Shown piece after piece: positions 36,215-55,467 of a stretch of 64,000 nucleotides of DNA. The position numbers were made by a program, and so were the translations under genes. Under the pieces are notes generated by a model that saw only the letters and a list, made by a program, of their open reading frames with translations, had not been told where the DNA came from and searched no databases. Source of the DNA: Geovibrio thiophilus (GTDB lineage Bacteria > Chrysiogenota > Deferribacteres > Deferribacterales > Geovibrionaceae). Position 1 is the stretch's first letter. Each line of letters starts with the position of its first letter. Where the stretch lies: NCBI RefSeq assembly GCF_004087915.1, contig NZ_CP035108.1, positions 2,170,001-2,234,000 on the forward strand, written 5' to 3'.

Positions 36215-36217
36215 CAC

Positions 36218-38032: not shown

Positions 38033-40856
38033 CTTTCGCCTCCGGATTGTACGAAGCGACAAAGATTCTCATATCATTCATGTATTCGACTGCAAAGCTA
38101 TTGATGTCCTTAAGGTTCAGCCCGTTTATAATCTCTTTGGTTTCCGCAACGGAGAGAACCGGCTCGCCCCTGATGAAATCGAATACTATATTGTTCACCC
38201 AGAAGCGGTTCTCTTCACCTGCGGAGTCATACTGAACGCTCTGCTGGCTTTTTGCCGTTTCCAGCTCCTTCTCTGTTATGCCGTTTTCTGCTATATCTTT
38301 AATAGTTTTGATAACTTCCTTGATTATATCGTCTCTGCGGGCAGGGTCGCACGTGAACGATACTCTGCCGGAGAAGACAGTCTCGGGATAATCCGAATAG
38401 CTTATCGAGGCGCTGACGGAGTATACTCCGCCCATGTCCTCACGGATGTTCTCACGCATTCTCTGGTTCAGCACACGTCTTATTACCGATACATAGTGCT
38501 TTCCGTTTGCGGTGTATTCCACATCCTTGTCAAAGCGGATCATCACCGTGGATCTGTTCTCCACATCGCCGAAGCCTTCCGCCGATGCGAAGCTTTCCTT
38601 CAGCCTCAGTCCTCTGTCCACAGCCTCAGCCTTTTCCTTCACGGCGGGCAGTCCGCCAAGGTATTTACGCCCTAACTCAGCCGTTTTCTCCCTGTCCACA
38701 TCGCCGGAGATAACGAATATGAAGTTGTTTATTCCGCTGAAGTAATCGTTATAAAGCTTCATAAGCTTATCAGGGGTGATATTCGGCAGATCCGCTTCCA
38801 GCAGATAGCCGCGTCGGTATTTGTCGTTGAACATCTTTTCCGCCACATCACGGAAGAAGACCGTTTTCTTATCCTTCTCGGCGCTCTCCAGAGCATTGGT
38901 GGTGGATTTCATCAGCGCCTCAAAGGTGTTTTTATCAATGTCGGGAGCGGTTATGTATTTGTATATAAGCTGGAACATGGTCTCCATGTCCTCGCTGTCG
39001 CCGCCGCCGCCGAAGTCAAACGAATTGCCTGTAACCCCGGGTGATGCCATAACCCTTTTCCCCGCAAGAAAAGTCTGGAGCTCACGCCTGCTGATCCCCT
39101 GAAAGCCGCTTGATATGAGTGCTCTCTGCATGAAATCGGCGTAAAGAATTTCCTCGTCACCCATCACGGAGAACCCGCCGGGCTTCTTCGCTGTGAGCAT
39201 GAAGCGGTTTTTGTCCACCGGATTGTATTTAATGAAAAGACGCACGCCGTTGCCGTAGGTAATCAGCTCCCCGTCAACGTTCGCATAGCTTTCCTTGGAT
39301 TTTACAACCCCGCCTTCCGGCTCCTTATCGATTATTCTATCCAGTATGCCGCCCGCAGCCTGAGCGCTCACTTCCGAGCCTTCCGCCTCGGACTGAATTT
39401 TCAGGAACTTTTCATCGGTGAGGGATATTTTATCAGCGTCTCTTTCGGGCATGGTTATGATCACCATGCGGCTGCCGCTCTCAAGAAGCCTGTTGAAAGC
39501 CCTGTTGTAGCTTGTGATATTTGTTTCATCGAATATGCGGTTCAGCAGAACCTTGTCCTGTGTAAATTCTGTGAGATGCCCGCCGAATGTGTCATACTCC
39601 GCTATCATTCCGGCGTATTTGTCGGACGGAAACTTATAGTCGGGGCTGGCGGCACGCTCAACATATGTTTTCTGCGATGTGATAAACTCTTTCAGCTCAT
39701 CCATATTAAAGCCGTAGCGCTTAACACGCTCAATCTCGGTGAGCATTTCCTTTATGTCCGCCTCAATGCTTTCAGGTCTTGTGGTGATGGAAAACCTTGT
39801 GAGGGCAAGACTGTCCGTCATAGTCGACTTGCCGCCGCGGAATGCGAGCAGGTCACTTTTCTTTTCAAGTATCTTAGAAGCTACACGCTTGTTCAGCATG
39901 CTCATGGCGCCGCTTTCAAGCACGTTCTGCTTAAGGTGCTCATAGGTTTCCACCCTGCCTTCTTCGCTGAAAAGATTATATGAGAGTGAAACTGAGGTTG
40001 CCTCGGGATCGGTGATAGTCCGCATTCTCAGCCCGTCCTGAAACGGAACGGATGTGTCCGCCTTTTGCGGTGTTTTTCTGCCTTCAATTGATGAAAAGTT
40101 TATTTTTATGAGTTCTTCCGCCTTCACGGGGTCTATATTGCCCACAACAATAACGGACATGTTCTCAGGGGTGTACCATTTATCGTAATAGCCTTTGAGA
40201 AGAGCCTTATCAGCGGATGCCACAACCTCCATGAGCCCTATGGGGTCACGCAGAGGGTAAAGCGAGCCTTCCAGAAGATATTCCCTCGCCATGTTGCGTA
40301 TGCGGCTGCGCACATCGTTGCGCATGCGCCACTCTTCGGTGATTACACCCTTTTCACTCTCTATCTCCTTTTCATCAAAGGTAATGCCGTCTGCCCAGTC
40401 CCGCATTATGAGAAAAGAGTCCTTGATAAGCTCTTCCTTATCCGCGGGAACGCTGAGCTGATAGTGGGTGTTTTCGGATGAAGTGTAGGCGTTTGAGTGC
40501 TGACCGAAGGTGAGTCCCAGCTCCTCCATGAATTTTATCAGGTCGTTCCCCTGATAGTTCCTTGTGCCGTTGAACGCCATATGCTCCACAAAGTGGGCTA
40601 TGCCCCGCTCAGCCTCGGTTTCGTTGAGAGAACCCGTTCTCACGTTCAGACGCAGTTCCACTTTGTCCTGCGGAAGATCGTTTTGCCTTATATAATACTG
40701 AAGACCGTTTTCAAGCTTTCCGTAAATAATCCTGTCGCTGAACGGAAGCTTTTCAGGCGAATTAGCCTCAGCCGCCGTGTTCAGCGAACAGCCGCCCGCT
40801 ATCGCAATAATTAAAGCCGTTATAAGTAAGCGGGCATTTTTAACTGTTTTTATCAT
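38025..40856 (-). CDS. M16 zinc peptidase, lipoprotein (PqqL/FusC-like)
   Basis: A 943-residue pitrilysin-family metallopeptidase. A signal peptide with lipobox AGGC (Cys23) predicts a periplasm-facing lipoprotein. The inverted zinc motif HFVEH (His88, Glu91, His92) and the downstream Glu in EIESEKGVITEEW are intact; the segment HMAFNGT matches PqqL/FusC. The C-terminal half repeats the fold without HxxEH, as usual. FusC degrades imported ferredoxin in the periplasm of Pectobacterium, so here it probably cuts a TonB-imported protein for YejA. The ATG at 40856 (6 nt after GGAGG) is chosen; 40859 and 40877 are alternatives. Confidence 0.9.
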   Translation of the reverse strand: MIKTVKNARLLITALIIAIAGGCSLNTAAEANSPEKLPFSDRIIYGKLENGLQYYIRQNDLPQDKVELRLNVRTGSLNETEAERGIAHFVEHMAFNGTRNYQGNDLIKFMEELGLTFGQHSNAYTSSENTHYQLSVPADKEELIKDSFLIMRDWADGITFDEKEIESEKGVITEEWRMRNDVRSRIRNMAREYLLEGSLYPLRDPIGLMEVVASADKALLKGYYDKWYTPENMSVIVVGNIDPVKAEELIKINFSSIEGRKTPQKADTSVPFQDGLRMRTITDPEATSVSLSYNLFSEEGRVETYEHLKQNVLESGAMSMLNKRVASKILEKKSDLLAFRGGKSTMTDSLALTRFSITTRPESIEADIKEMLTEIERVKRYGFNMDELKEFITSQKTYVERAASPDYKFPSDKYAGMIAEYDTFGGHLTEFTQDKVLLNRIFDETNITSYNRAFNRLLESGSRMVIITMPERDADKISLTDEKFLKIQSEAEGSEVSAQAAGGILDRIIDKEPEGGVVKSKESYANVDGELITYGNGVRLFIKYNPVDKNRFMLTAKKPGGFSVMGDEEILYADFMQRALISSGFQGISRRELQTFLAGKRVMASPGVTGNSFDFGGGGDSEDMETMFQLIYKYITAPDIDKNTFEALMKSTTNALESAEKDKKTVFFRDVAEKMFNDKYRRGYLLEADLPNITPDKLMKLYNDYFSGINNFIFVISGDVDREKTAELGRKYLGGLPAVKEKAEAVDRGLRLKESFASAEGFGDVENRSTVMIRFDKDVEYTANGKHYVSVIRRVLNQRMRENIREDMGGVYSVSASISYSDYPETVFSGRVSFTCDPARRDDIIKEVIKTIKDIAENGITEKELETAKSQQSVQYDSAGEENRFWVNNIVFDFIRGEPVLSVAETKEIINGLNLKDINSFAVEYMNDMRIFVASYNPEAKVE

Positions 40857-41997
40857 CATTTTCCTCCAGATATTCAAGAAGCTTCATGGCACGCCTGCCG
40901 TATTCGCTGTTTTTTCCTGTCATTTTCAGAAAACGGCGGGCATTTGCCTTGTCCCCCGCTTTATAGTAAGAGAGACCTGCCATATAAGAGCCGTAAGACC
41001 TGTTTCCCTCTTTCTCGGTTGATTTGACAAAGGTCTCGGCAGCTCTTCCGTAATCCTTTTTCATGAAGTAAGTCACAGCTTTTGAACTGAGCGCTTTATC
41101 AGTGCAGCCTGCGGCAACAGCCTTGTCGAAGATGCTTATGGAGTTTTCAAATTTACCGGCTTTCCTCGCCACATTTCCGGCAAAGACCATATCACGGCAG
41201 TCAAGACGCACCTCGTTCATAGCGGCTGTGAAAAACTCCGCCGCTTCATCATAGACCTTAGCCCGGGCAAGAAGTTTTGCGGCGGTGATTTTATCAGCCC
41301 CGCCGATATTGCCGGTTCTGGCATATGTTCTCATGGCGGAGACGCCTTCCTTGATTTTTCCGTCCTCAAGGGCGAACGCGGCGTAGTATTTCCACCAGTC
41401 GGGATTCTGCGAAACGTCGATCCTGCCTTTGAGCATGGAGTAGAAGGAGTCCTTTCTGTCTGCGCGGAATGTCGCCGCGAGAACCGCCTTGGCATCCGAA
41501 TCATCCAAACTTTTGAACTCAGCGGGAGTAATGACGGAAGCTGCCCTGCCCCACTGCTGTTCATCGAAATAAACTGAGAAAAGTATCTTTTTCTCCTGCA
41601 TATTCAGCCCGCCAAGGGAGGAAAGCTTGTTCAGAAGCTGCTCCGCCTTTCGGTAATCTTTGTTTTCATAGGCGAGCAGAGCTGCGTTTTCCCACATCTG
41701 CCTGTTGTCTCCGTAAAATACGGCGCTGTCCTCAAACTCTCTCATAGCGCACTTTTTATCCTGCTTTTTCAGGCATATGTTGCCCATGAGCATGCTGTGC
41801 AGACCGTGGGACGCTTCGGGAAACTGTTTCCTGTATTCCCTGATAGCATCCTCTGCCTTGACTGTCTCACCCTTTTCATAAAATGAGTGAGCCTTGGTAT
41901 AAGCCGTGCGGGCCTCTGTCGTGAGTCCCTTTTCGGCATCCGCGGCAAAAGCGCTGACGGACGCCGCAGTCATGAGGAGTATAAAAAGCTTTTTCAT
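40840..41997 (-). CDS. Periplasmic TPR protein of the TonB2-type cluster
   Basis: A 385-residue protein with signal peptide (MKKLFILLMTAASVSAFA) followed by TPR-like helical repeats along its length (for example AEDAIREYRKQFPEASHG and AVTYFMKKDYGRAAETFVK). In Vibrio, the TonB2 operon ends with a TPR gene in the same position after tonB2. It may stabilise TonB or link it to the receptor. It starts on the last base of the tonB stop and overlaps the peptidase gene by 17 nt. Confidence 0.85.
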   Translation of the reverse strand: MKKLFILLMTAASVSAFAADAEKGLTTEARTAYTKAHSFYEKGETVKAEDAIREYRKQFPEASHGLHSMLMGNICLKKQDKKCAMREFEDSAVFYGDNRQMWENAALLAYENKDYRKAEQLLNKLSSLGGLNMQEKKILFSVYFDEQQWGRAASVITPAEFKSLDDSDAKAVLAATFRADRKDSFYSMLKGRIDVSQNPDWWKYYAAFALEDGKIKEGVSAMRTYARTGNIGGADKITAAKLLARAKVYDEAAEFFTAAMNEVRLDCRDMVFAGNVARKAGKFENSISIFDKAVAAGCTDKALSSKAVTYFMKKDYGRAAETFVKSTEKEGNRSYGSYMAGLSYYKAGDKANARRFLKMTGKNSEYGRRAMKLLEYLEENDDKNS

Positions 41998-42674
41998 CAG
42001 TATTTTTCCAGCGTAAATTTTACAATTACTATCATGCGCACATTAACCGTTTCGCCCCCTTTGACAGCGGGGGTAAACTTCCATTTCCTTACGGCGGCAA
42101 GCGCCGAACTCTCAAAGACATTAGGCGGATCAGACTTAACAGCCTGCGGATTGACCACATTTCCGTTTCTGTCCAGAGTGAAGCTGACTGTTACGCTGCC
42201 TTCTATGCGGTTGTTAACAGCGTATCTGGGGTAATCGGGTTTGACGTTGACTGTCTGCCTCGGTCTGTTGTCCAGATCACTGAGACTATAAACCGCATCC
42301 GACGGAGCCGACACAGGCTGCGCCGGAGCGCTTATGCTCGGCAGAGCCGCAGGCTGAACCTTCACCTCGGACACCTGTATGCTTATGCCTGTGTCCCCCG
42401 CATCAACATCAGCCTCTATGGGCATATCCTGCATAAGCGGCTGTTGAGTGGGAACACGCTCGGTTTCCGGTTCCTTCGGCAGCTCATGCTTCTCCTGCTG
42501 TATATTTTCTGCGGCTTTCTCACTCATCATCACACGGAACGCATCGCCTCTGTCTGATGTGTCGAAGCTGTGCTCACGGTTCATTGTGATGAACACCGAA
42601 AATACCAGCAGCGTCATCACAAACGCCAGAGCCCACTTAAGAGCGTTTATTCCGAAGGAGGAAAGCCTGCTCAC
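41997..42674 (-). CDS. tonB: TonB energy-transducing protein
   Basis: A 225-residue TonB. A single N-terminal transmembrane helix (about 9-29) is followed by a periplasmic spacer with only moderate proline content, then a C-terminal TonB domain (about 140-225: YPRYAVNNRIEGSVTVSF, AVRKWKFTPA) that grips the receptor TonB box. The start is the GTG at 42674 overlapping the exbD stop (GTGA). Confidence 0.93.
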   Translation of the reverse strand: MSRLSSFGINALKWALAFVMTLLVFSVFITMNREHSFDTSDRGDAFRVMMSEKAAENIQQEKHELPKEPETERVPTQQPLMQDMPIEADVDAGDTGISIQVSEVKVQPAALPSISAPAQPVSAPSDAVYSLSDLDNRPRQTVNVKPDYPRYAVNNRIEGSVTVSFTLDRNGNVVNPQAVKSDPPNVFESSALAAVRKWKFTPAVKGGETVNVRMIVIVKFTLEKY

Positions 42675-43078
42675 TGTCCGCCCTTCGCCGCCAGACTCAC
42701 GTGATTCACACCCGCAAGGCGGCATTGATCCATGATTTCCACAACCGTTTCAACCCGGGCGTTCTTATCGGCTATCACAACCGCAGCCGCCTTCGGGTTG
42801 TCTGAAAGCATAACGGACACCCTGCCCCTTACGCTTCTTATATCGACTTCCTGATTATCCATGAAAATGCGCCCGTCACCGGTTACGGCTATGAGCACGG
42901 AGGAATCCTCCTTCTTCTGCGCCGTGGCTGCGACCGGTTTTTCCACCTCTATACCTGTTTCCTTCACAAAGCTTGTGGTAACAATGAAGAAGATCAGAAG
43001 CAGAAAGATCAGGTCGATCATAGGCGTCATATCAATTGAAGATGAATTGCCTGAGGAACGTCTGGCTATACGCTGCAT
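42671..43078 (-). CDS. exbD: ExbD proton-channel subunit
   Basis: A 135-residue ExbD/TolR protein. The single transmembrane helix begins with the proton-carrying Asp in MTPMIDLIFLLLIFF (about residues 17-31), followed by a periplasmic domain. With ExbB it forms the proton-driven motor for TonB. The start at 43078 (MQRIARRSSG) has GGAGGG and overlaps exbB by 13 nt. Confidence 0.93.
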   Translation of the reverse strand: MQRIARRSSGNSSSIDMTPMIDLIFLLLIFFIVTTSFVKETGIEVEKPVAATAQKKEDSSVLIAVTGDGRIFMDNQEVDIRSVRGRVSVMLSDNPKAAAVVIADKNARVETVVEIMDQCRLAGVNHVSLAAKGGQ

Positions 43079-43611
43079 GACTGCCCTCCGATGTATGTTA
43101 TTTTTTCTGCATTGATTTTGTTGATCAGCCTTATCTTCATCCGCTGGAGAAAAGGCATGGCAACAAGCCCGGGTATAGCCGCCACAAGCCCCCACATAGT
43201 GGTTGAGAGTGCGCTTGATATGCCGTTTGCTATCATGCCGGGTTCGCCTGTCCCGCTCTCAGCCATTACGCTGAAAGCTATGAGCATACCCCACACAGTT
43301 CCCAGAAGCCCAAGCATCGGCGCAGCCGCAGTGCCTATCCTGATTCCCGACAGCCTGTGCTCCAGAAGCCTGATGTACTTGCCAAGATAAGGGGCAAGCT
43401 GTTTTTCATTCTCATAAACAATGTGCAGCGCACTGAGCTCAGAGCGCACCTTCTCCGTGATGCGGGAAACGCTGCTACCCTTAGCGGGCAGCAGCAGCCA
43501 GCCGTAAAAGAACAGCCTGTCGATAATGCAGAACCATATGTATATGTTCAAAAAGAAGATTATCATCTGAACAGTATTATCGGTAACTACCTTATATATT
43601 TCGCCTATCAT
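43066..43611 (-). CDS. exbB: ExbB proton-channel subunit
   Basis: A 181-residue MotA/TolQ/ExbB protein with three transmembrane segments; the second and third lie around APMLGLLGTVWGMLIAF and TTMWGLVAAIPGLVAMP. It is the short ExbB2-type partner of TtpC. The ATG at 43611 overlaps the ttpC stop (ATGA). Confidence 0.92.
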   Translation of the reverse strand: MIGEIYKVVTDNTVQMIIFFLNIYIWFCIIDRLFFYGWLLLPAKGSSVSRITEKVRSELSALHIVYENEKQLAPYLGKYIRLLEHRLSGIRIGTAAAPMLGLLGTVWGMLIAFSVMAESGTGEPGMIANGISSALSTTMWGLVAAIPGLVAMPFLQRMKIRLINKINAEKITYIGGQSCSV

Positions 43612-44966
43612 TTTTCGGTTCCCGCTGAGTTGAACACCTTCATCCCTGCCTCCTGAAGCCTGTCCAGAAGAATCTCCGCACGTCTTGCGAAAAAGGTGTG
43701 AACAAGCATGACGGGAATAGTCACAATAAGACCGAACATAGTCGTTATCAGCGCTTCGGATATACCGCCCGCCATCAGCCTCGGGTCGCCGGAGCCGTAA
43801 AGGGTGATCACGTGGAATGTGCTTATCATCCCCGTAACTGTACCGAGAAGACCAAGCATCGGCGCAACAGCAGCGCATGTGGAAAGATGTGAGAGGTTTC
43901 TCTCAATAACCGGCACTTCCTTAAGAAGAGCCTCGTTGAGTATGTTTTCCCTCGCCTGCAAAGTGCATGAGCGGTAAGGTATTATCGCCATGCAAACCCT
44001 GCCCATCGGGGAGGTCTTTATGCTTTCGGCGTTTTTGAGAGCCTCATCCGTCTTGCCGGCTTCAAGCTTTGAGGCTATCCCGTCAACAGCGTCCAAACCG
44101 CCCAAACCTTTGAAATAGAGGCTGTACGCTCTCTCCAGAGCAAGGAGGAACGCAAACACCGCAACAAGAATAATGGGGATTATCAGAAGCCCGCCTTTTT
44201 TAAGCTGGGAAAGGAGCGTGATTTTGTTCTCCCACTGCTTGAAAACGGCGCCGCCCGAGAAGTCCAGAGACATATCGTCAGATTCCCCTTTGAAATATTT
44301 TTCCACCAGCCCGCGCTCCTTTGAGGGTACGCCGGCAACTTTCTGCAAGCCGCCTTCAAGGCTTCTGGCAAGGTAGCCGTGCTCGTTTCCGTCTTTATAA
44401 ACATCAGCGAAGGTGCCGATAGAGAGCACCTGAACATTTTTCTGAGTTCCGTCAGTATCTGTCACAGACATATCACGCAGACTCACCCTTGAGGCATAAC
44501 CGATGAAGTCCAGATAGCTCCCAGCGAGAAAGCTGAGCTTGGCGAGAGGCTCCTCTCCTTTTTTAAAGAAGTCGCCGCCGCCGGGAATAGCATAAGACGG
44601 GTATTCCTGAGCCATCACAAAGAAATCCTGCATGGCGGCTTCCACCGCCGCCTCAATCTGTGTGAAGCTGCTGTTTTCCCTGCTGAGGGCTTCCCTGTTC
44701 TCATTTATAGCCTTTATGTAGCCTTCGCTCTCCCTGCGGAGCGAATCAGCCTCGGCATCAAGTGCGGCGAGCTGTCTTTCCAGCGCCGTCACTTCACTTT
44801 TCATTTTACTGCGGTCGTTCCTTAAAGCCTGAAGTTCCTTCTCTATTGTTTTTGAAACAGTTTCGGATTCCTGCACAAGGTCTTTGTAAATCACTCTCAA
44901 ATCTTTTGCGAATACGGCTGCGGGGATAATCAGCACAGCCGCCATTATAACTGCGAGTCTTTTCAT
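43608..44966 (-). CDS. ttpC: TtpC-type ExbB homologue with periplasmic coiled-coil extension
   Basis: A 452-residue protein. A signal-like N-terminus (about 1-20) precedes a coiled coil (about 25-105, KELQALRNDRSKMKSEV) and a periplasmic region to about 250, then an ExbB domain with three membrane segments (GLLIIPIILVAVFAFLLAL, APMLGLLGTVTGMISTF, ITTMFGLIVTIPVML). Length and layout match Vibrio TtpC (about 450), which is essential for TonB2-driven uptake. It overlaps DUF3450 by 4 nt. Confidence 0.88.
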   Translation of the reverse strand: MKRLAVIMAAVLIIPAAVFAKDLRVIYKDLVQESETVSKTIEKELQALRNDRSKMKSEVTALERQLAALDAEADSLRRESEGYIKAINENREALSRENSSFTQIEAAVEAAMQDFFVMAQEYPSYAIPGGGDFFKKGEEPLAKLSFLAGSYLDFIGYASRVSLRDMSVTDTDGTQKNVQVLSIGTFADVYKDGNEHGYLARSLEGGLQKVAGVPSKERGLVEKYFKGESDDMSLDFSGGAVFKQWENKITLLSQLKKGGLLIIPIILVAVFAFLLALERAYSLYFKGLGGLDAVDGIASKLEAGKTDEALKNAESIKTSPMGRVCMAIIPYRSCTLQARENILNEALLKEVPVIERNLSHLSTCAAVAPMLGLLGTVTGMISTFHVITLYGSGDPRLMAGGISEALITTMFGLIVTIPVMLVHTFFARRAEILLDRLQEAGMKVFNSAGTEK

Positions 44967-45712
44967 TGTACTTCTATCCTCCCCACGGGAAGAGTCACCA
45001 GAGCGGGCATCCTTTTTCTGTTAACCAGCTCACCGGCTATGATAACCTCTTCCGAATACTTTGAATCTAGCTTTTCAAACTGCTTTGAGGACGGATTGAA
45101 GAATGCGGCAGTGGTTCCGTCCGGCGTGGTGAAGAAGCCGGCGAGCCCTCCTGCCCTCAGCACATAGCCGTTAAGCTGCTCACCGTTTACAGTCACGCTC
45201 ATGCTGCGTATTTCAGCGTATCTTGACATGTCAGCCTCAACCTTGTAAGCCTCCATGACCCTGCGCACCTTCTCCGCGGGGAGAACATCAGGTGCGGCGA
45301 CAAAAGCGACAAGGCTTTCTATGCGTTCGCTCCTTTCCTGAACCGCCGCCTCATCACCGGAAGATATTTCGGAGCCGAGCTTTTCAAGCAGGTATGAAAG
45401 GGCTGTTTCCAGACCTGTTTTCAGCTTCTGCCCTTCGGCTATTCTGCTTCTGCTCCTGTCCGCCTCGGTTTTAAGCTCCGCAGCGGATGATTTGAGACTT
45501 TTCAGATAAGCCTCCTTCTCCGCCACGGCTCTTTTCAGATGTATATACTGCTGCTCCAGATTAATTTTTTCTTCCTGCCATTTCTCGTTTTCCGAGTAAA
45601 AGCCGCTTTTCTTGTCATGGATATTCTTCTGCAAATCCAGAATCTTATCCGCTTCCGCAGCATAAGCGCTTCCGGCAAGCATCACACACAATGCGACAAG
45701 AATTTTGTTCAT
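44963..45712 (-). CDS. DUF3450-like periplasmic coiled-coil protein
   Basis: A 249-residue protein with signal peptide (MNKILVALCVMLAGSAYA), a long coiled coil (about 22-105, KINLEQQYIHLKRAVAEKE) and a C-terminal beta-rich domain (GFFTTPDGTTAAFFNP). This layout and the position just before ttpC match the DUF3450 gene of TonB2-type clusters. It probably interacts with the TtpC coiled coil in the periplasm. It overlaps both neighbours by 4 nt. Confidence 0.78.
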   Translation of the reverse strand: MNKILVALCVMLAGSAYAAEADKILDLQKNIHDKKSGFYSENEKWQEEKINLEQQYIHLKRAVAEKEAYLKSLKSSAAELKTEADRSRSRIAEGQKLKTGLETALSYLLEKLGSEISSGDEAAVQERSERIESLVAFVAAPDVLPAEKVRRVMEAYKVEADMSRYAEIRSMSVTVNGEQLNGYVLRAGGLAGFFTTPDGTTAAFFNPSSKQFEKLDSKYSEEVIIAGELVNRKRMPALVTLPVGRIEVQ

Positions 45713-46965
45713 ATTTTATTCCTCCCGAATCCGTCCAAGAGTACCAGAGCGAAAACAGCGTATATTCCGCCGGCGAGCACAAGCGCCGTGTCATAGGGCA
45801 GTGTGCGGTTTCTTCTTCCGCTGAAAATCATCAGAGCAGCGTAAAAAACAGCGAGCACAGCCGAAAAAATGAACGCCGCAGGCAGTTTTTCGCTGAACTC
45901 GATATTAAGGCTGCTGCCGTACCTGTCAGGATTTTTTGTATTTATCTCAAAGGGGAAAACTGAGTCATAAACCGCTCTGAACACTCCCCTGAGCCTTCTT
46001 TCATACGGATAAAACGCCTTCTTTTCCAAATTGTAGTTTTTATCCGCTACATAGACATTTTCCCCGAACTCGTCAGAGATTTTAACCATCATATTGAGCG
46101 GGTCTTTTATATATCTGAAGGTCTGCTCAAGGGGTCTGTAGTTTTCCACGGGAAGCTTTTTCAGTTCGTAGCCTTCCTTCATGATGTGGTATACGCCGCC
46201 CCCAGTGGTTAACAGAAAACCGTAGTAAGGCAGAACCATATCTTCTTTGACTGCGATATACAGGATTCCGTCTTCGGGCTTTATTCCCGTTTTTTTCACG
46301 GAAGGCTGCCCTTTTACCTGCATCAGGTGGAACATTTCGCCTGCTCCGTCCTGAACGAAGTAGCCGAAATCGTAAGGCTTTTTCGTAGTCGGATTTCCGG
46401 CTATCATCTTAGGCGGAAAAACAAATCCCTCTTTTCTTAAAGCTTCTGTGAAGAGAACGCTTTTTTCCTCGTCCACGGCGTTTTTCACCCCGTTTATGAA
46501 TTCCATGCGGGAATTTATGCGGAAAAGCTCCGAAGGCATCTCGACCTTTGTGAAATCGCTGTCGGATTCAAACAGCGGATAAAGTTTTATCCTTACCTTC
46601 TCGCCATCTATCCAATAGGAGTGAATATTCACGAAATCCCTGTTGCTTGCAGCCTGCTCGACTGAAACATACTCGCCGCCCACTATGTCGGGATACATGC
46701 CCCATTTCTGAAGATCCCTGTACTGTATGAAGGGAATAAGCCTTGTGTATTCCTTCGCGCTGTACTCGTTGCCTGCGCCGTCATAATATTTTCTGGAGCC
46801 GGATCTGTCCTCAAGGCTGTAGACAATATCCTCAATGACTTTGCTGTAGAAGATCGCCGGTCTTTCCGCCCTTTTGCCGAAAACAGTGGAATACAGATAA
46901 GGGATCAGGCTGCTGAAGGAAATAACCGCCGCTATGAGCAGCAGGTATCTGGAAATATATTTCAT
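45709..46965 (-). CDS. Membrane-anchored periplasmic protein, DUF4857-like
   Basis: A 418-residue protein with an N-terminal transmembrane helix (about 6-28), a large soluble domain (about 35-340) with recurring short beta segments, and two C-terminal membrane helices (about 362-382 and 393-413). It resembles DUF4857 proteins that sit beside ABC-2 transporters, but this assignment is from memory and tentative. Starting 1 nt after the permease gene, it is probably a third part of that ABC complex. Function unknown. Confidence 0.55.
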   Translation of the reverse strand: MKYISRYLLLIAAVISFSSLIPYLYSTVFGKRAERPAIFYSKVIEDIVYSLEDRSGSRKYYDGAGNEYSAKEYTRLIPFIQYRDLQKWGMYPDIVGGEYVSVEQAASNRDFVNIHSYWIDGEKVRIKLYPLFESDSDFTKVEMPSELFRINSRMEFINGVKNAVDEEKSVLFTEALRKEGFVFPPKMIAGNPTTKKPYDFGYFVQDGAGEMFHLMQVKGQPSVKKTGIKPEDGILYIAVKEDMVLPYYGFLLTTGGGVYHIMKEGYELKKLPVENYRPLEQTFRYIKDPLNMMVKISDEFGENVYVADKNYNLEKKAFYPYERRLRGVFRAVYDSVFPFEINTKNPDRYGSSLNIEFSEKLPAAFIFSAVLAVFYAALMIFSGRRNRTLPYDTALVLAGGIYAVFALVLLDGFGRNKI

Positions 46966-46966
46966 A

Positions 46967-47629
46967 TCACGCCCCTTTCCTGAATCTGAGCGCCGGATAA
47001 AACAGCACGGGAATAAACATCACCGCAAGCATGCAGGAGAGCATAAGGATTGTTCTGTCGGAGTTGTAGACTGAGACGGCGAAAAAACCGCTGAACGCGC
47101 CGAGCATTATGCCGAGCTTGAACTTCTGTTTCCAGACTGGTTCCAATGTGAAAGAAGACACAAAAATATAAATGACAACCGCTGTGAGATACCAGTAGAA
47201 CATAACCACAGGAGCTTCCGAATAGATTTCATAAGGGAAATATACTCTGGCTGATAGGTAAACCACAGCCGCGTCAAAGATCCAAAGCAGTGTAATAACA
47301 CTTATGCCGAAGAACACCATGCTTCCTGTCATGGCATATTCGTTCACCGGAAGGTGGCAGGATATGCGGAAACGCTTCTTCTCTGTTTCGGGATAAAACT
47401 GCATCACACCAAGCGCGATTGCTGAAACCTGAAGCAAGATCTCGAATCTGCCGAAGAAAAATGAATGCTTATCAATTATATCCGTCCATATCATAACAGG
47501 ATTCATCATGGAGAAGCCGCTTCTGAGCTTGAGCCAGAAGTAAACCGCATATCCGGCGCTCGCCAGAAATACGGCAAAAATAACTTTATTCAATTTAATG
47601 AACTCTTTGATCCAGATCTGCCTAATCAT
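46967..47629 (-). CDS. ABC-2 type transporter permease
   Basis: A 220-residue membrane protein with about six hydrophobic helices (for example FAVFLASAGYAVYFWL, VISVITLLWIFDAAVVYL, ILMLSCMLAVMFIPVLFY). It was recognised mainly from its place between an ABC ATPase (9-nt gap) and the DUF4857-like gene (1-nt gap). The small size is usual for ABC-2 permeases. The substrate and direction are unknown; this type often exports or acts mechanically. Confidence 0.75.
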   Translation of the reverse strand: MIRQIWIKEFIKLNKVIFAVFLASAGYAVYFWLKLRSGFSMMNPVMIWTDIIDKHSFFFGRFEILLQVSAIALGVMQFYPETEKKRFRISCHLPVNEYAMTGSMVFFGISVITLLWIFDAAVVYLSARVYFPYEIYSEAPVVMFYWYLTAVVIYIFVSSFTLEPVWKQKFKLGIMLGAFSGFFAVSVYNSDRTILMLSCMLAVMFIPVLFYPALRFRKGA

Positions 47630-47638
47630 TAAATCTAC

Positions 47639-48532
47639 CTAATATTTTCCGGTAAGCGCGATAAACGCGTCTTCCAGTGTTATGTCATAATTTTCAGGTG
47701 TTACTTCAACTCCGGTCTTTGAAAAGAAATAGACCGCAGCGTCCTGAGGCGGAATCTCCGCTATGATTTCGTATCCGCCGCTGGTGTGGGAAACATCGCG
47801 GATTTCCGCTTCCGCTTCCAGCGGGGTAAGATCCTGAGCGCTTTTTATCCTGTAACCGTAGAGACCGTTTTTCAGTTCCGCCAACGGAGCGGAACGGAGA
47901 ACCTTTCCCTTGTCGATTATCAGAGCATCGTCCACAAATCTTTCCAGATCCTGAACAATGTGGGATGTTATGAGGACAGTCTTCTTCCGCTCCTTCACGT
48001 AAAAGTTCAAGTGATCCAGAAACAGCCTGCGGTAGCCCGCGTCAAGCCCCATGGAGAAATCATCCAGAATCAGCACATCGGCGTTCTGCGCCATCAAAAT
48101 GGCAAGCGCCACCTGAGAGCGCTGACCGCAGGACATATGCTTAATTTTATGCTTTCGGTTGAGCCCGAGCTTTTTCATCAGATAGTCGAATATTTCCATA
48201 TCCCATTGAGGATAAAAGCTTTTATAAAACTTCTCAGTTTGGTCTATGCTCATGAACTCATAGCACAGATGCCCCTCGTGCAGAAGACCGATCCGCTTTT
48301 TCCCATCAGGGGAAAGACTGTGCGCCGCCTCACCCAGAACAAGGCACTTACCCTTGTCCGGTGCGAGAAAACCCATCATTATGTTGATGGTGGTTGTCTT
48401 CCCTGCTCCGTTTTTACCGAGAAGACCGAAGGTTTTCCCCTTTTCCACCGTAAAGTTTATTCCGTGGAGCACTTTGTTGTTCCCGTAGGAGTGCTCAAGG
48501 TTTTCGATGCAGATAACCTTATCAGAATTCAT
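47639..48532 (-). CDS. ABC transporter ATP-binding protein
   Basis: A 297-residue ABC ATPase of the CcmA/ABC-2 type. Walker A GKNGAGKTTT (about 38-47), signature MSCGQRSQ (SGGQ variant with Cys), Walker B LILDDFSMGLD with a second Asp replacing the usual catalytic Glu (canonical DEP reads DDF), and switch SHI are visible. The Asp-for-Glu change and the missing His in the switch suggest slow or altered hydrolysis. A C-terminal regulatory domain spans about 220-297. The ATG at 48532 (MNSDKVICIENLEHSYG) overlaps the receptor gene end by 11 nt. Confidence 0.88.
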   Translation of the reverse strand: MNSDKVICIENLEHSYGNNKVLHGINFTVEKGKTFGLLGKNGAGKTTTINIMMGFLAPDKGKCLVLGEAAHSLSPDGKKRIGLLHEGHLCYEFMSIDQTEKFYKSFYPQWDMEIFDYLMKKLGLNRKHKIKHMSCGQRSQVALAILMAQNADVLILDDFSMGLDAGYRRLFLDHLNFYVKERKKTVLITSHIVQDLERFVDDALIIDKGKVLRSAPLAELKNGLYGYRIKSAQDLTPLEAEAEIRDVSHTSGGYEIIAEIPPQDAAVYFFSKTGVEVTPENYDITLEDAFIALTGKY

Positions 48533-51071
48533 AAGCCACCCCCGCCCAAAACTGGCGCCCGATTTCGTATTCGTTTTTGTATTCCGTTGTGTCGGTACGG
48601 TCGTCACTCTTGCCTATTTCATTCTTGCTGTTAAAGACATTGTAAACTTCTACTGTAAAAGTAAGCTTCTGTTTCCTTTTAAGAGGCTGAACCCATGAAA
48701 CAGCGCAGTCCAACGTGTAGGAGACATCAAATTTTTCTTCTTCGTATTTTTCAACGTATTTGTAAACAGGATCTCCTGTAATAGGATCGTCCTCACCAGT
48801 CGTACCGGCAGGATAAGCATCATCCGTGAGAACAACCTGCCTGTATGCTCCCCTGAAATTAAAAACAGGAGAAATAACAAGTCTGTCAAAAAACTTTCCG
48901 GTGTAAGCTATATTGGCGACAATGGGACGATTGTAATTATCTTTAGGCTTGTCATATCTTTTGATGAGTTTACCCTTGTACAGTATCTCATCATCCATAT
49001 CTTCAAGATCATCAGAATCATAGGTTTTGTTGGATGTTTCTGATTCATGCCACATCGCATTTGCCATGAAGCTGTGATTTTTCCAGAATTTATTCCATTT
49101 AACCTGAACGGATCTGTATTTGCTGCGTCCGTTGTTTGTCAGAAAGTAGTGTTTGTAGCCGTCAGCCTGAGTCTCTGTTTTCATTCTGGCAAAAGCATCT
49201 TTGGTCTCCCTCTGGATATACTGGAGGCTGAGAACACCGCCGAAAAGGCTCTGATCAACTGCCGTCGCATATTCATCAGTATAAGGGGTTTCCAAATTGG
49301 CAAAGTTATGCTTAATATCACCCCCGTCAGTTGTCTCTCCCCATTCAAGAAGCTGGTTTTGGTAAGTGCTCCTCCTCTCTTCATATGAAGGAGCTATGCC
49401 TTCCCGCAGCTTGTTGTACAGAAGGTTTCCGCTGTAGTACCTGTTGTAGCCCACTGAAAATACAGTATTGTCGTTATTGAAGAGATCGTACTGAAGCCTT
49501 GTTCTGGGTGCGATATTCGCATTTTCCATATAGTCGTCATATGAAAGCCTCAGCCCGATTCTCAGGTTGAACTTACCTGCTGTCCAGTCATCCTGCACAT
49601 AAAAACTGTATTCATTTATATCAGCGTCAACATCTGTTGCCGGAGTGATGCTTCTCTTATAAAAATACTGTTCGCCGTCGACACATGTGCCGGTGTCACC
49701 ATTGCATACAACATCAGCGCTGAGTCTTGCTCCGGAATAGCTGTACGCATCTTCCGGCCTGTAGTAACGACCTGAAATGAAAGAATACACCGCTCCATAA
49801 GACAGAAGATGCTCTCCGCCGAACCTGTAGCTGCCAATGGCATGATCAAGTTTCAGGTTCAGTGCCTTTTCTTCCTGTTCTACAGTGCCATACCCGCCTT
49901 CTCTGCTGACGCCTGATGTTATGTTGTCCGGATTACCGTCATTTCCTATTTCAGTTTCAACCAAATACCCCCAAGGCTTGCTGCCGCTCGCAATCCATGC
50001 TTTCAATTCGTTAGGAGCAGTTTTTGAGGATTCAGTTGACGCAGCGTCCACACTCACTGACAGCTTATTTTCCCCTTCCTCACGCACGTATTTGGCAACT
50101 CCGGCAAACCCGCCGGACTCAATAGTGAACTCACTGTTCAGAGTATTAGGCGTGAAATAAATCCCCTCATAGGGCATATAAGATAAGGAAAATTCCAGAT
50201 AACGCCCCCCGTCTATGTTATGTACTCCTTTAAAAAAAACATTTTCAGATACTCTGGACTGTTCTTTCCAGCCGTCAAAAAATTTCAGCGGAATAGTGGA
50301 TTCGTTCCTGCTGTAAAAAATAAGGAAGCCGGTATTTTCGGTAACTGGAACATCAACGTAAAAATTTACAAAGTGTTTTTCAAATCTGGGCTGTTTGAAA
50401 GAGTTTTCCGAGTTTTCAAACTTATATTTGTCCTCAAGAGTTCCATCCACTATAATTTCCGCCCATTCAGAACGGGTTGTACGGTATGAAACACCACCGC
50501 TGAACTCTTTCTCCGGCATTCTGGTTTTTATATCGACAACACCGCCCATAAATCCGCTGAAAGACGCAGGGACATTGCTGTCATACACTGTCATCTTTTC
50601 AACAATGGATGAATCCAGAAAGATCTTTTGCGAATACCCGCCTATGGAGTCAGTGTCATACGGACTAAAGTCAGCAGGATTCAGAATGCTGGTGTTGTTC
50701 ATTCCATCCACAAGAAAGAGGTTTTCATAGGGCTTTCCTCCTGATATGGAAAGCTCTTCCGGTGCTATTTCGCCGCCCGTCAGGGAACTTCTGTAGGATT
50801 CGTTAAACTGCACGGAAGGAGCCATCCTGAGGAGATCAGTTATATTAGCGTTGCCCTTTGGAAGATTCTCTATATATTCACGGGGAATCTCTGTTCTTCC
50901 GGACTTATTAAGCTCTTTGTATGATTCAACGACATCAACTTCATCAAGCACTAAAATATCGGCTTCGCTTATATTGTCCGAAATGTCCGCAGCGTATGCA
51001 GCATAACAGACGAATTGAAAGGCGAGAGCCGCATAAGCGGCTCTCTTTATAGTATTTATAATTTTACTCAT
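48522..51071 (-). CDS. TonB-dependent outer membrane receptor
   Basis: An 849-residue outer membrane gated barrel. A signal peptide (about 1-27, ending AAYA) is followed by a likely TonB box in LDEVDVVES (about 41-49), the plug (about 60-195: LPKGNANITDLLRMAPSV, LFLVDGMNN, GGVVDIKTR) and a barrel ending in Phe (FWAGVAYEF). The C-terminus matches outer membrane beta-barrel endings. It starts 6 nt after the lipoprotein gene. The plug is of the kind seen in receptors for larger substrates, but the ligand cannot be told from sequence. Confidence 0.93.
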   Translation of the reverse strand: MSKIINTIKRAAYAALAFQFVCYAAYAADISDNISEADILVLDEVDVVESYKELNKSGRTEIPREYIENLPKGNANITDLLRMAPSVQFNESYRSSLTGGEIAPEELSISGGKPYENLFLVDGMNNTSILNPADFSPYDTDSIGGYSQKIFLDSSIVEKMTVYDSNVPASFSGFMGGVVDIKTRMPEKEFSGGVSYRTTRSEWAEIIVDGTLEDKYKFENSENSFKQPRFEKHFVNFYVDVPVTENTGFLIFYSRNESTIPLKFFDGWKEQSRVSENVFFKGVHNIDGGRYLEFSLSYMPYEGIYFTPNTLNSEFTIESGGFAGVAKYVREEGENKLSVSVDAASTESSKTAPNELKAWIASGSKPWGYLVETEIGNDGNPDNITSGVSREGGYGTVEQEEKALNLKLDHAIGSYRFGGEHLLSYGAVYSFISGRYYRPEDAYSYSGARLSADVVCNGDTGTCVDGEQYFYKRSITPATDVDADINEYSFYVQDDWTAGKFNLRIGLRLSYDDYMENANIAPRTRLQYDLFNNDNTVFSVGYNRYYSGNLLYNKLREGIAPSYEERRSTYQNQLLEWGETTDGGDIKHNFANLETPYTDEYATAVDQSLFGGVLSLQYIQRETKDAFARMKTETQADGYKHYFLTNNGRSKYRSVQVKWNKFWKNHSFMANAMWHESETSNKTYDSDDLEDMDDEILYKGKLIKRYDKPKDNYNRPIVANIAYTGKFFDRLVISPVFNFRGAYRQVVLTDDAYPAGTTGEDDPITGDPVYKYVEKYEEEKFDVSYTLDCAVSWVQPLKRKQKLTFTVEVYNVFNSKNEIGKSDDRTDTTEYKNEYEIGRQFWAGVAYEF

Positions 51072-51077
51072 CGCTGC

Positions 51078-54000
51078 TTAATCCGCGTAAAATGGCGTGG
51101 TGTCTGTGGTATCCGGCTTACCGTCACCGTCAGAATCATCGTCAAGCTCAAGACCGGAAGCGGCTATCTCTGCCGATGTAGCGGAGGGCAGGAAGAAATC
51201 CGGCTTACCGTCTTTATCCGTATCCACAAACGCAATGGATACACCGGAGAAATCAGAGGATGAAGTGACTGTCCCTGCAATATCCAGTATTGAATCATAG
51301 CGGTCCGCAGTGGTTGAAAGAAGTTCACCAGTTTTCTCATAAGCAAGATCCACAAGACCAAGAGCGGCATATACAAGGATAATGCTTTTTCTTTCAGAAG
51401 TCTTTTTTGAAGCACTTGCAATATCTGCAGAAACAGTTTCAGCCGCAAGCAGCATATTTCTGGCTTTTTCCATATCAGGCACAGTATAATACCTGCTGGA
51501 CAAATACCTGAAATACCCTGATTCCGCTATGGCATTGGTGTCATCCGTTGTACCTGCGGTGTGAACATCTCCCGCATAGTCCGCCGCAGTGTCAAGACTA
51601 AACTCCATGTTTGTTTTATCTCCGAGCAGATTATAATCATCCGCCGTGTTCAGATAGAAGGCATAAAAAACCGCTGGAGTAAAATTATCAGTAGCTATCG
51701 TTCTCGCTTTGGCAAGCAGGGATTCAACCTTGGAGACATTGTTCAGCCCATCATAGGAAACCCCAATTCTTGAATACGCATAAGCTTTATACAGGGAATC
51801 CGTGCTGGCGTCAGTGTAGTCCTCCGCCTTCTGGAGCAGTTCAGCCGCCTTAACATCATCACTCATAGACATATAAACTTCCGCCAGCTTTACATAACCG
51901 GCTTCAGCCTCTCTGCTGCCTGCAACAACCAACGTAAGCCATGTGTTGTAGCTTATGCTGTTGTTGTCGATGTATGCTTTCAGCGAATCCAGCTTATTTT
52001 CCATGTATGTAAGCGCTTGAAGAGCAAGGGTTTCGTTGTCCATTTCCACTGCTGCCAGCGCTACCCCGGTGCTGGACTTGTTTACTCCCAGATAAACCCA
52101 CGAATCCATGTAATCGCCTATTGCGGAGAAAGTATCGCCCATAGGTATTTTTCTTTCAAAAAACTCTACAGCCGTATCAAAGCCTTCTTCAAAAACCATT
52201 GTTATAGTAATTGCCTTGGTAGTGTTTTTGATGGCAGACGCTGTTGTAAGAGTGTCAAGAACGGCAACCGCCTCTTCTGTTTCGCCGCTCCAGTAAAGGT
52301 CGCTGAGAATGCTGTCGTAGTAGAGCTGCCACTGAACACCCTCTTCCGCCTGATCCAGAAGCCTGAGAGGGTCTATATTGTCCGTAAAAAGATTTTTCAC
52401 CTTTTCCTTAAGACCGAGAGATCTATACATCTCTGAAGCGTAAGCGTAATAAACAAGGTGGATGGAGTATCTTTTGCCGGGGGTGGTATTAGGATATTGC
52501 CCTTCGATCAGCTCGACAAAATAATCAACTGCATCTTCAGCTCTGGAATCATTTGAATAAACGAGTGTTTCCGCGGCGTGCCACTGTGCGGTAAGCAGAC
52601 GACCGTGAGCTGTTTTTCTTGTAGTTTCATTTGCGATATTGGCAATCTCTTCAGCAAGCCACTCCTTAAGCCTCAGAGACTCATCCTGTCTGTCTATGTA
52701 CGCATACTCTGTTGATAAAAGAATCAGTTCGCTTGCTTCATCAGAGGTGATCACTCCATCGCCTCTGGCAGAATAAATAGATACTATAATATCCTCTGCG
52801 GATTTGAGCAGATTGTATGTCTCATCTGCACTGCCGTATACTCTTGTAAACTTTCCGATATATCTGTACGCAGTCGCCTTGCTGAAAGACATAACAAGAA
52901 AAGCGTCCGAAATTCTTTTTGCCTTCTCAAGCATTCCGTAAGATGCGTAGGAGTAAATAACTTCCAGATAGATGGCATCATTTATTTCATCATCATATAC
53001 CTTGCTGATGAGTTTTCTTGCCAGATAATTTCTGTCAATATTTGAGTTGAAATAATAATCGGCTCTTGCCGTGTTGTTGTCTCCGGGCAGGTTCGCCGCA
53101 GCAAGGGGAATATTGACAAACTGTACACTGGCTTCATTCATGATTGTGCCCAGTGCTGTCGCGAAGCCGTCAGCCGCAAGCATTGACGCAAGAGCCGTAT
53201 CAAAATCGGCTGAAAGATAGCTATTGTAATCCCCGAAAAAATCATCACTGAAGAGAGCAAACCTCACAGCCTGATAGATCGGGAAGCTTTCAAGAGCAAA
53301 CTCTGCATCTGCTGTTTCCTCAAGTCCCTCAAGGAGTTTGTCAACATTCTCAATGTATGTGTCTGAAACAGTAGCGGGAAGATTCTCAACAAGGCTTGAA
53401 ACCGCTCTTCTGAAAAGCGCGCTTTTCTCAGCAGCTACAAGCTCTTCAACGATATTGCCCTCTCCGCTGAGATTTGCGAGAAGAGTCAGTGTTTCCTCAA
53501 GCTCCTGCTTCACATCCGCATATGACGCGGCAGAAGTAAATTCCGCAAAAACCTGATCAAGCGCTCCCGCCGCGAACTCTCCGCTTTCAGTGACAAACTC
53601 CCCGTTTTCAACCGCTCTCACTATTGCGGCAAACGGATCTTCCTCACCTCCGCCGTATGTACTGTTAAGATCGCGGTACTGTGAGGCGATCCTGACAAGC
53701 AGATATGAAGCATGGAGAAGCTCAGGCTCAAGGGAAGGATTGGAAAGAATATCCGTATCCGCAGAAAAGCCGAAGGCATTTCTTATTGCACTGACAGCAG
53801 CCTCGATTTCGCTCTGGCTCATGCGTGAGGTTACAGAAGCCAAGTCGGAGACGATAAGAGAAGTAAGAGGCGACACCACTATGCCGTCTGTATCTCCGCT
53901 GAAAGCGTTAAGGGGGGCAGTCAGGCTTATTGATTCAAAACTGATTCCTGTTTCAGTGTCAACCCCGCCGTGCGTCTGCATGTAGTAGAGTGAAAAGTCG

Positions 54001-54281
54001 AAAGAAGAGGGAACAATAAATGAAAATCCACCTTCGTCATTGCTGAATGTGCGGCAGAGAAGGTTGCCCGCAACGCCGCAGGTATTCACGAGAGTATCGT
54101 CAGAGATATTTCTTATCTCAACCTGTGCCCCTGTTATCGCAGGGTCGGTTACGATGCCGGATATGGTCTGAGTTGTGCTTCCGCCGTCATCGGGGTCGCT
54201 GCTTCCGCCGCCGGAACTTCCGCCGCAGCCCGCTGCGAGAAGCAGAGTGAGGGCAGATAAAAGTATGAATAATTTTCTCAT
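51078..54281 (-). CDS. Large lipoprotein with helical repeats, receptor partner
   Basis: A 1067-residue protein. Lipobox LAAGC (Cys19) followed by a Gly/Ser/Asp-rich tether; then a carboxypeptidase-regulatory-like beta domain (about 40-110: ISGIVTDPAITGAQVEI), and long TPR-like helical repeats (about 400-1000). The C-terminus carries calcium-binding type motifs DTDKDGKPDF and DDDSDGDGKPD. As first gene before the TonB receptor, it is probably a surface or periplasm-facing capture lipoprotein for the same substrate. No known family was recognised. GGAGG precedes the ATG. Confidence 0.8.
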   Translation of the reverse strand: MRKLFILLSALTLLLAAGCGGSSGGGSSDPDDGGSTTQTISGIVTDPAITGAQVEIRNISDDTLVNTCGVAGNLLCRTFSNDEGGFSFIVPSSFDFSLYYMQTHGGVDTETGISFESISLTAPLNAFSGDTDGIVVSPLTSLIVSDLASVTSRMSQSEIEAAVSAIRNAFGFSADTDILSNPSLEPELLHASYLLVRIASQYRDLNSTYGGGEEDPFAAIVRAVENGEFVTESGEFAAGALDQVFAEFTSAASYADVKQELEETLTLLANLSGEGNIVEELVAAEKSALFRRAVSSLVENLPATVSDTYIENVDKLLEGLEETADAEFALESFPIYQAVRFALFSDDFFGDYNSYLSADFDTALASMLAADGFATALGTIMNEASVQFVNIPLAAANLPGDNNTARADYYFNSNIDRNYLARKLISKVYDDEINDAIYLEVIYSYASYGMLEKAKRISDAFLVMSFSKATAYRYIGKFTRVYGSADETYNLLKSAEDIIVSIYSARGDGVITSDEASELILLSTEYAYIDRQDESLRLKEWLAEEIANIANETTRKTAHGRLLTAQWHAAETLVYSNDSRAEDAVDYFVELIEGQYPNTTPGKRYSIHLVYYAYASEMYRSLGLKEKVKNLFTDNIDPLRLLDQAEEGVQWQLYYDSILSDLYWSGETEEAVAVLDTLTTASAIKNTTKAITITMVFEEGFDTAVEFFERKIPMGDTFSAIGDYMDSWVYLGVNKSSTGVALAAVEMDNETLALQALTYMENKLDSLKAYIDNNSISYNTWLTLVVAGSREAEAGYVKLAEVYMSMSDDVKAAELLQKAEDYTDASTDSLYKAYAYSRIGVSYDGLNNVSKVESLLAKARTIATDNFTPAVFYAFYLNTADDYNLLGDKTNMEFSLDTAADYAGDVHTAGTTDDTNAIAESGYFRYLSSRYYTVPDMEKARNMLLAAETVSADIASASKKTSERKSIILVYAALGLVDLAYEKTGELLSTTADRYDSILDIAGTVTSSSDFSGVSIAFVDTDKDGKPDFFLPSATSAEIAASGLELDDDSDGDGKPDTTDTTPFYAD

Positions 54282-54379: not shown

Positions 54380-54406
54380 AGTATAATAAGTAGCATCTGT
54401 TGTCAA
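54380..54406 (-). promoter_or_regulatory. Promoter of the 22-kb uptake operon
   Basis: On the minus strand TTGACA (54401-54406) and TATACT (54380-54385), spacer 15 nt; TACTAG 17 nt away is an alternative -10. The predicted start is near 54373, leaving a leader of about 90 nt before the lipoprotein gene. Confidence 0.6.
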
Positions 54407-54487
54407 GTCATTTCTGAGTTAAAATGCCTTTGAAATCCTTATTTGACCGTGAGTTTACCAAATGAAAAGTTGTTTCCGGAGCTTAAT

Positions 54488-54918: not shown

Positions 54919-54919
54919 A

Positions 54920-55435: not shown

Positions 55436-55467
55436 CGGCTCCTCCATAATTTCAGGTGACCTATATT

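Follow-up and report, generated by a model that had tools for sequence, protein, structure and literature searches.

TonB-receptor uptake of whole proteins for iron is established for few bacteria. The closest described systems are the Fus sets (FusA, FusB, FusC and FusD in Pectobacterium), which are reported in Proteobacteria, where their receptor and protease serve iron piracy (PMC6793856), and which also go under the label of protease-associated import systems (PMC6793856, PMC5095587). In published models the iron-sulphur cluster, once freed, passes by way of FusD (PMC13253070, PMC5095587, PMC6793856). In Escherichia coli MG1655, the Fus-related gene set is yddA-yddB-pqqL, of which YddA matches PF06472/PF05992 and is SbmA/BacA-like. 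Here we describe a run of 16 genes in Geovibrio thiophilus, located on the minus strand of a 64,000-nucleotide stretch (contig NZ_CP035108.1, positions 2,170,001 to 2,234,000; hereafter the window). The run extends from 54281 to 32494 in window numbering (about 21.8 kb), and its neighbouring genes overlap or are separated by at most 9 bases. Its protein families make it a cluster of the Fus type, for protein import, in the phylum Deferribacterota. It also encodes an ATP-binding cassette (ABC) ATPase, a permease and a DUF4857 protein (together, the cassette). In a literature search, with most subscription papers and all preprints outside its scope, none of the matches listed dealt with Fus systems in Deferribacterota, and the papers found gave no function for DUF4857.

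Fus-related components and their co-occurrence

The only solved structures matched by the receptor sequence at E<=1 are 4zgv, titled 'ferredoxin receptor' (E=4.4e-96), and 6ofr (E=1.1e-59), which we take to be FusA and YddB. Alignment with the annotated YddB of E. coli MG1655 gave E=3e-38 (38% over 206 and 25% over 393 columns). For the M16 protease the best matches are 9ldy (1.7e-108), PqqL 6ofs (1.3e-92) and 6b03 (9.5e-45), the last titled putative zinc protease and presumably FusC, and the protein is 27% identical to annotated E. coli PqqL over 920 columns (E=3e-98). Its HxxEH motif lies at residue 95. The N-terminus of this protease reads IIAIAGGC, so the protein may be membrane-anchored. 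For the peptide-binding protein, the matches include 7z8e (1.6e-138) and YejA entries (~1e-124).

The run encodes seven ABC-type proteins or subunits, and none of them matches PF06472 or PF05992, the families of the SbmA-like fused transporter. Because YddA is SbmA/BacA-like, its apparent counterpart for peptide uptake is the Yej-type importer and not the DUF4857 cassette. The cassette was also considered as a FusD homologue and rejected, as SbmA-like YddA aligns with the cassette ATPase only around the P-loop.

Beyond its related receptor and protease, the cluster resembles Fus sets in having a TonB-type energiser and an ABC importer within the same gene cluster. It differs in phylum, reported Fus systems being proteobacterial (PMC6793856), in having a six-gene TonB2-type motor and a Yej-type importer where YddA is SbmA-like, and in encoding an extra lipoprotein and the extra ATPase-permease-DUF4857 cassette. 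The operon appears to hold a full set for capture, motor, protease and peptide import in a phylum other than the Proteobacteria. A preliminary description of this DNA had placed an ATPase, a permease and a DUF4857-like protein between a receptor and TonB motor genes. Gene positions and Pfam families confirm both the arrangement and the label: the three genes lie 3' of the Plug-domain receptor gene and 5' of the DUF3450/ExbB/ExbB/ExbD/TonB genes. The Fus-type kinship of receptor and protease goes beyond that description.

The motor genes occur in the order DUF3450, extended ExbB, ExbB, ExbD, TonB and a TPR gene in the TtpD position. Vibrio TonB2 and TonB3 systems have the reported order TtpB-TtpC-ExbB-ExbD-TonB-TtpD (PMC6957404), with the same kinds of genes and the DUF3450 gene likewise first; this comparison is of gene order, not sequence, and TtpD is matched by position only. 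A further likeness is that the TonB3 operon starts with a receptor gene (PMC6957404), whereas the ABC cassette between receptor and motor sets the window apart. The 1067-residue lipoprotein gave no family in a Pfam search, and elsewhere in the phylum its relatives sit 5' of FusA-like receptors.

By analogy with Fus, the operon would import an intact protein for iron. The lipoprotein and FusA-like receptor would capture an extracellular polypeptide, most likely iron-bearing, and the TonB2-type motor would power its entry. The M16 protease would cleave it in the periplasm, and the YejABEF-type importer would take up the peptides.

DUF4857 was identified in 14 of 50 genomes of the window's phylum, and the identical 14 hold a FusA-type receptor (E<1e-100); a fifteenth genome has a FusA-type match of 2.4e-6 only. 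The supposed link between cassette and receptor is strengthened by this agreement, which would arise by chance with a probability of ~1e-12 if genomes were independent and ~2e-5 by genus (7/19), relatedness making both values too small. A PqqL-type protease (E<=1e-60) is present in 13 of these 14 genomes and in none of the other 36. Presence is patchy within genera (3/10 genomes of g14, 2/3 of g1 and 1/3 of g2), so the receptor and DUF4857 set seems to be gained or lost together. The G. thiophilus genome encodes 9 Plug-domain receptors in 3.0 Mb, making chance adjacency of cassette and receptor unlikely. Relatives of the set occur in Mucispirillum, a gut genus. Four genomes (G033, G034, G035 and G036) have a second PqqL-type M16 protease, on a contig other than the operon's.

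Distribution, residues and predicted folds of the cassette

Outside the window's phylum, cassettes were found in the phylum of genome G050, which includes an Ignavibacteriales metagenome-assembled genome (MAG; L038), an order that GTDB places in Bacteroidota, and in the phylum of G051, which includes a Calditrichia MAG (L036). DUF4857 was found in 15 of 395 genomes of the G050 phylum. A FusA-type receptor (E<=1e-20) was found in 3 genomes of this sample, each of them with DUF4857; at most two candidates were scored per genome in the matches listed, so FusA-type receptors could be missed. In these 3 genomes (L087-L089) the FusA-type receptor gene lies ~1 kb upstream of the DUF4857 gene. Similarity searches located a TonB receptor, 0 to 11 kb away, in 29 of the 35 context loci (in L072 and L075 on the opposite strand only), and the L072 and L038 proteins used as receptor queries were verified as receptors. 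In four of the six loci with no receptor (L073, L086, L091, L092, L094 and L095), namely L086, L092, L094 and L095, a contig ends within ~3 kb upstream of the ATPase. A contig scan with the DUF4857 alignment (A2) gave 12 loci, and a scan with a single DUF4857 protein as query gave 27 pattern stretches and no relative. The plasmid collection gave no DUF4857 match, and among 14 control genomes only Bacteroides ihuae has the family.

Neighbour families are known only for those loci whose neighbours were run, most neighbours in the 35 loci being outside the family-library searches. Iron genes found beside the cassette encode FeoB, PepSY-TM and 4Fe-4S membrane proteins. In L076, L080 and L090 (G050 and G051 phyla) the cassette accompanies a CarboxypepD_reg receptor, a DUF4876 lipoprotein and a DUF6850 protein, with PepSY-TM, a 4Fe-4S membrane protein or an M16 protease in addition; of the 16 loci from the G050 phylum, 6 include M16 genes. 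A single protein combines permease and DUF4857 in 4 of the 35 loci (L072, L087-L089). One of these belongs to G001, where FeoB, a DUF4198 protein, the cassette ATPase and the fused permease-DUF4857 are encoded in a row (L072); a second set in this genome is divided over two contigs, as lipoprotein-FusA-ATPase and permease-DUF4857-motor (L097, L073). Around the FusA-like receptor and fused cassette of L087 and L088 are CbiX-domain proteins, PepSY-TM and more TonB receptors, a setting that suggests extracytoplasmic chelation of tetrapyrroles or metals. Two incomplete Deferribacteraceae MAGs, G031 (L027, L030) and G030 (L032, L037), each have two permease-DUF4857 copies (one in G030 partial at a contig end) and one cassette ATPase (E<=1e-30), hinting at mixed complexes that share one ATPase.

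In Bacteroides thetaiotaomicron, genes BT3625-3633 are reported to be up 37-128-fold in iron starvation, and include genes for DUF4857, a hypothetical protein, an ABC ATPase, PepSY-TM, DUF4876 and a TonB receptor (PMC10434189). This gene list resembles locus L076, the comparison being with the list rather than the BT sequences; the locus as listed there has no M16 protease or motor genes. Fur-like sites were sought in the 300 bases upstream, with 300 shuffles per locus that preserve base composition only. Strong sites were found in some relatives, including 16/19 in L070 (no shuffle as good), 15/19 in L074 and L035 (3 and 5 shuffles as good) and 14/19 in L071 (8). The best sites were 13/19 in L031 and L034 (81 and 165 shuffles as good) and 12/19 in L029 (242).

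We aligned 33 cassette ATPases (32 distinct sequences), those of the window and of 32 context loci, leaving out the three loci with no adjacent ATPase. The residue after the Walker B Asp, where the catalytic Glu is expected, is Asp in the window (LILDDF), as the preliminary description had it, and in all 33 proteins from three phyla; it is Glu in all 7 aligned ABC ATPases from elsewhere in the same genome. With 20 further controls, 27 in all, Glu was recovered by motif search in 25; the motif was not located in two, one of which has Glu in the alignment. The switch His, thought to be missing from the SHI motif, is in fact present in 33/33 cassette ATPases and 7/7 controls, and TSHI of the window aligns with the ordinary H-loop. 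Of the two residues that might have been displaced, the Glu is truly absent and the His is normally placed. Four further, unaligned cassette ATPase genes (G030, G031, G036 and G001 contig 11) also encode DD and His. Glu occupies the Q-loop position in all 33 (controls: Gln in 5/7, Glu in 1/7), and the signature reads MSCGQRSQ in 30 proteins and MSNGQRSQ in the other 3. Walker A, the Walker B Asp and the signature Ser-x-Gly are intact.

Relative to the genome's 27 ABC ATPases, the 33 proteins group in a single clade with support 100/100; its stem is long and carries a long-branch warning. Among solved structures the window ATPase is nearest to the type V ABC group (CcmAB, NosFY, ABCG, ABCA), with best matches to ABCA3, ABCA7, ABCA4 and ABCA1 and a lower one to NosF (E=5.4e-23). 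In general ABC biochemistry, replacement of Glu by Asp is associated with slow or switch-like hydrolysis, and the invariant Asp suggests such hydrolysis here. It would be a natural example of altered ABC catalysis retained across phyla.

No family was identified for the permease in Pfam or NCBIfam. Its predicted model (mean pLDDT 76.5) is all-helical. VIA-align ranked CcmB (PDB 7f02) first, with Z 14.3, root-mean-square deviation (rmsd) 4.1 and 201 residues aligned, and NosY second (Z 14.0, rmsd 4.2, 201 aligned), structure chains being taken as such (7f02 chain B as CcmB). The first 30 rows are type V-kind permeases aligned over ~200 of the 220 residues (Z 10.2-14.3), and the first unrelated row has Z 10.1. 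Foldseek gave no match at E<=0.001 and ranked LptF first. The model has no inserted periplasmic domain such as the large one that lies between the first two membrane helices in MacB and LolCDE. Of the earlier suggestion of a MacB- or Lol-like mechanical device, the architecture lacks support, and the mechanical role stays a good reading in view of the CcmB and NosY matches.

PF16149 is the sole Pfam match of the DUF4857 protein (257.5 bits against a cut-off of 25, positions 2-269 of 270). The model (mean pLDDT 82.2) has a helix at residues 2-29, a domain of ~330 residues (~30-358) and two C-terminal helical stretches. Over residues 122-321, most VIA-align matches were to propellers of the WD40 type (best Z 8.1), and Foldseek matched PorZ and methylamine dehydrogenase (E ~5e-4, low TM-scores); a profile search found no solved relative (best E=0.054). 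We do not claim a propeller fold from these matches, nor are missing MacB-like rows evidence either way. Conservation was counted on 42 genes, one row (L068) being a fragment: 30 positions hold one residue in at least 90% of them, none of which is Cys or His.

Possible roles of the cassette

In CcmABCD, heme is passed from one partner to another at the expense of ATP (PMC9616876). This heme-release complex (PDB 7f02), the source of the best permease match (CcmB), resembles the cassette in its separate ATPase, further periplasm-facing subunits and, if iron is indeed handled here, iron cofactor. The window differs from it in having DUF4857 instead of CcmC/D, a catalytic Asp and no conserved heme ligand that we could see. 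NosDFY also spends ATP on cofactor hand-over. Like the cassette, it comprises an ATPase, a permease and a periplasmic protein encoded by three genes, and NosY and NosF are among the matches of permease and ATPase. NosF has Glu, however (its solved mutant is E154Q by structure title), DUF4857 is membrane-anchored in the model, and the NosD fold is presumably different. GldA-GldF-GldG likewise combines an ATPase, a permease and a membrane-anchored periplasmic protein. The GldA model of NCBIfam matches the cassette ATPase (E=1.3e-34) at 120 bits, well under the cut-off of 402.6, and the DUF4857 protein sets the cassette apart in matching PF16149 alone.

Because the two best permease matches come from complexes that spend ATP on cofactor hand-over, we consider the cassette as an ATP-driven periplasmic step. 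Our leading but tentative reading, possible rather than probable, is that the Fus-type import run works with a type V ABC complex that has DUF4857 as its periplasmic part and acts on the iron side, driving the hand-over of iron or a cofactor. ATP binding and slow hydrolysis (Asp for Glu) would shift the DUF4857 domain, and this movement may free the cofactor or its carrier within the periplasm or pass it on, comparably to CcmABCD or NosDFY. Beyond the permease matches, this reading draws on the shared distribution with FusA-type receptors and the PqqL-type protease, on the permease-DUF4857 fusions and on the two halves of the divided set retained in G001. A role for iron is suggested by the starvation response of the B. 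thetaiotaomicron locus (PMC10434189), by the iron genes beside cassettes elsewhere and by the flavodoxin-DUF2023 pair that adjoins the window operon.

Several observations weigh against this reading. A best Z of ~14 is typical of helical models with no clear Foldseek match, and for the permease Foldseek gave none at E<=0.001. The Z 8.1 match of DUF4857 may reflect only a common arrangement. No Cys is conserved in more than half of the 42 DUF4857 genes and the best His is found in 35 of 42, so there is no obvious iron or heme site. Cassettes in the G050 and G051 phyla mostly accompany other TonB receptors, and the task is thus not specific to protein import; the single M16 protease tested there (L080) best matches other M16 subfamilies. 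G001 is the one genome among the 14 with no PqqL-type protease at E<=1e-60. The best Fur-like site of the window operon (13/19) was equalled in 45 of 300 shuffles and is not above them. By analogy, the role proposed for FusD, moving the freed cluster, could simply be shared by the cassette.

That last point leads to a nearly as good account, because it is FusD that carries the freed cluster in Fus models (PMC13253070, PMC5095587, PMC6793856): the cassette may be an inner-membrane importer of freed iron, iron-sulphur cluster, heme or chelate, so that the iron share of the task proposed for FusD falls to it and peptides are left to the Yej-type importer. Recurrence beside iron genes and the response of the cassette-containing B. 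thetaiotaomicron locus to iron starvation (PMC10434189) would fit. Yet the FusD relative YddA, SbmA/BacA-like, has a fold different from that of the cassette, the L072 cassette adjoins FeoB, already an Fe2+ mover, and DUF4857 has neither a conserved Cys nor a strictly conserved His. Type V ABC proteins are, moreover, mostly exporters or periplasmic machines. Export, whether of a secreted iron-chelating molecule or of toxic products of protein digestion, would agree with the best NCBIfam scores of the ATPase, which are to exporters such as PmtA and DrrA and far under their cut-offs, and with the presence of ABCG and PmtCD exporters among the structural matches of the permease. Strict co-occurrence with FusA-type receptors makes it quite improbable, and no biosynthetic cluster was seen, family-library searches having covered a minority of the neighbours in the 35 loci.

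A Lol-like device for maturation or release of the receptor or its lipoprotein partner would explain why lipoproteins are frequent neighbours (the 1067-residue protein in the window, DUF4876 proteins in other phyla). It has a slim chance, however, given the type V-like permease model, the lack of a match to the window lipoprotein in L072 and L087-L089, and the lack of DUF4876 among the neighbours run from L072, L087 and L088. Just as improbable is an ordinary ABC transporter that stands in the operon by happenstance and in which the Asp is neutral: the intact Walker A, Walker B Asp, signature and switch His allow it, but the Asp is invariant across three phyla, the ATPases form one clade (subject to the long-branch warning) and TonB receptors accompany most loci.

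In a further reading, which we consider unlikely, DUF4857 cassettes would represent a new class of periplasmic machines that spend ATP in iron acquisition linked to TonB: a type V ABC with conserved Asp catalysis, acting as a slow, gated unloading device. The large anchored DUF4857 domain would then pull, unfold or strip the imported protein or carrier leaving the receptor, and outer-membrane protein import would draw on both the proton gradient (TonB) and ATP (cassette). Whether ATP besides the proton gradient powers such import is a question raised by the operon. By tying DUF4857, an uncharacterised family, to a protein-import set, it also makes the function of this family testable.

Gene coordinates and adjoining features

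Table 1. Features of the putative import operon and its upstream flank, in window positions.
Feature	Positions	Strand	Basis
Lipoprotein, 1067 aa, first gene of run	51078..54281	-	lipobox LLAAGC
FusA/YddB-family TonB-dependent receptor	48522..51071	-	PDB sequence search, E. coli YddB alignment
ABC ATPase, ATG start	47639..48532	-	Asp at catalytic-Glu position, Glu at Q-loop position, signature MSCGQ, switch His
Type V-like ABC permease, 220 aa	46967..47629	-	predicted model, structural matches
DUF4857 protein	45709..46965	-	PF16149 E=1.7e-76
TtpB-like DUF3450 protein, TonB2-type motor	44963..45712	-	PF11932 E=1.5e-49
TtpC-like ExbB, N-terminal extension	43608..44966	-	PF01618 E=5.2e-29
ExbB	43066..43878	-	PF01618 E=3.6e-21; real start probably farther inside listed open reading frame
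ExbD	42671..43195	-	PF02472 E=2e-31; listed open reading frame start probably too early
TonB	41997..42725	-	PF03544 E=1.8e-22
TPR protein, TtpD position	40840..41997	-	TPR families
PqqL/FusC-type M16 protease	38025..40877	-	HFVEH motif, lipobox-like N-terminus, PDB and E. coli PqqL matches
YejA-type peptide-binding protein	36218..38062	-	PF00496; PDB matches
YejB-position permease	35108..36217	-	PF00528 E=6.5e-37
YejE-position permease	34074..35105	-	PF00528 E=4.7e-27
YejF-type fused double ATPase, last gene of run	32494..34077	-	PF00005 E=7e-61, two stretches
Promoter-like site 5' of run, behind terminator-like stem (54495-54517)	54383..54411	-	position only
Flavodoxin (54920-55447) and DUF2023 (54577-54951) pair, adjoining operon	54577..55447	-	iron-starvation pair in Bacteroidota

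The edge first given for the ATPase gene, 48532, stands, its ATG being preferable to a longer GTG start at 48607 that falls within the receptor gene. Promoter-like sites are no commoner in the window than in shuffles, and the sole match in an Rfam search was a tRNA. The terminator-like stem separates the operon from the flavodoxin-DUF2023 pair, which lies directly upstream. In B. thetaiotaomicron, this iron-starvation pair is reported to be up 326- and 598-fold.

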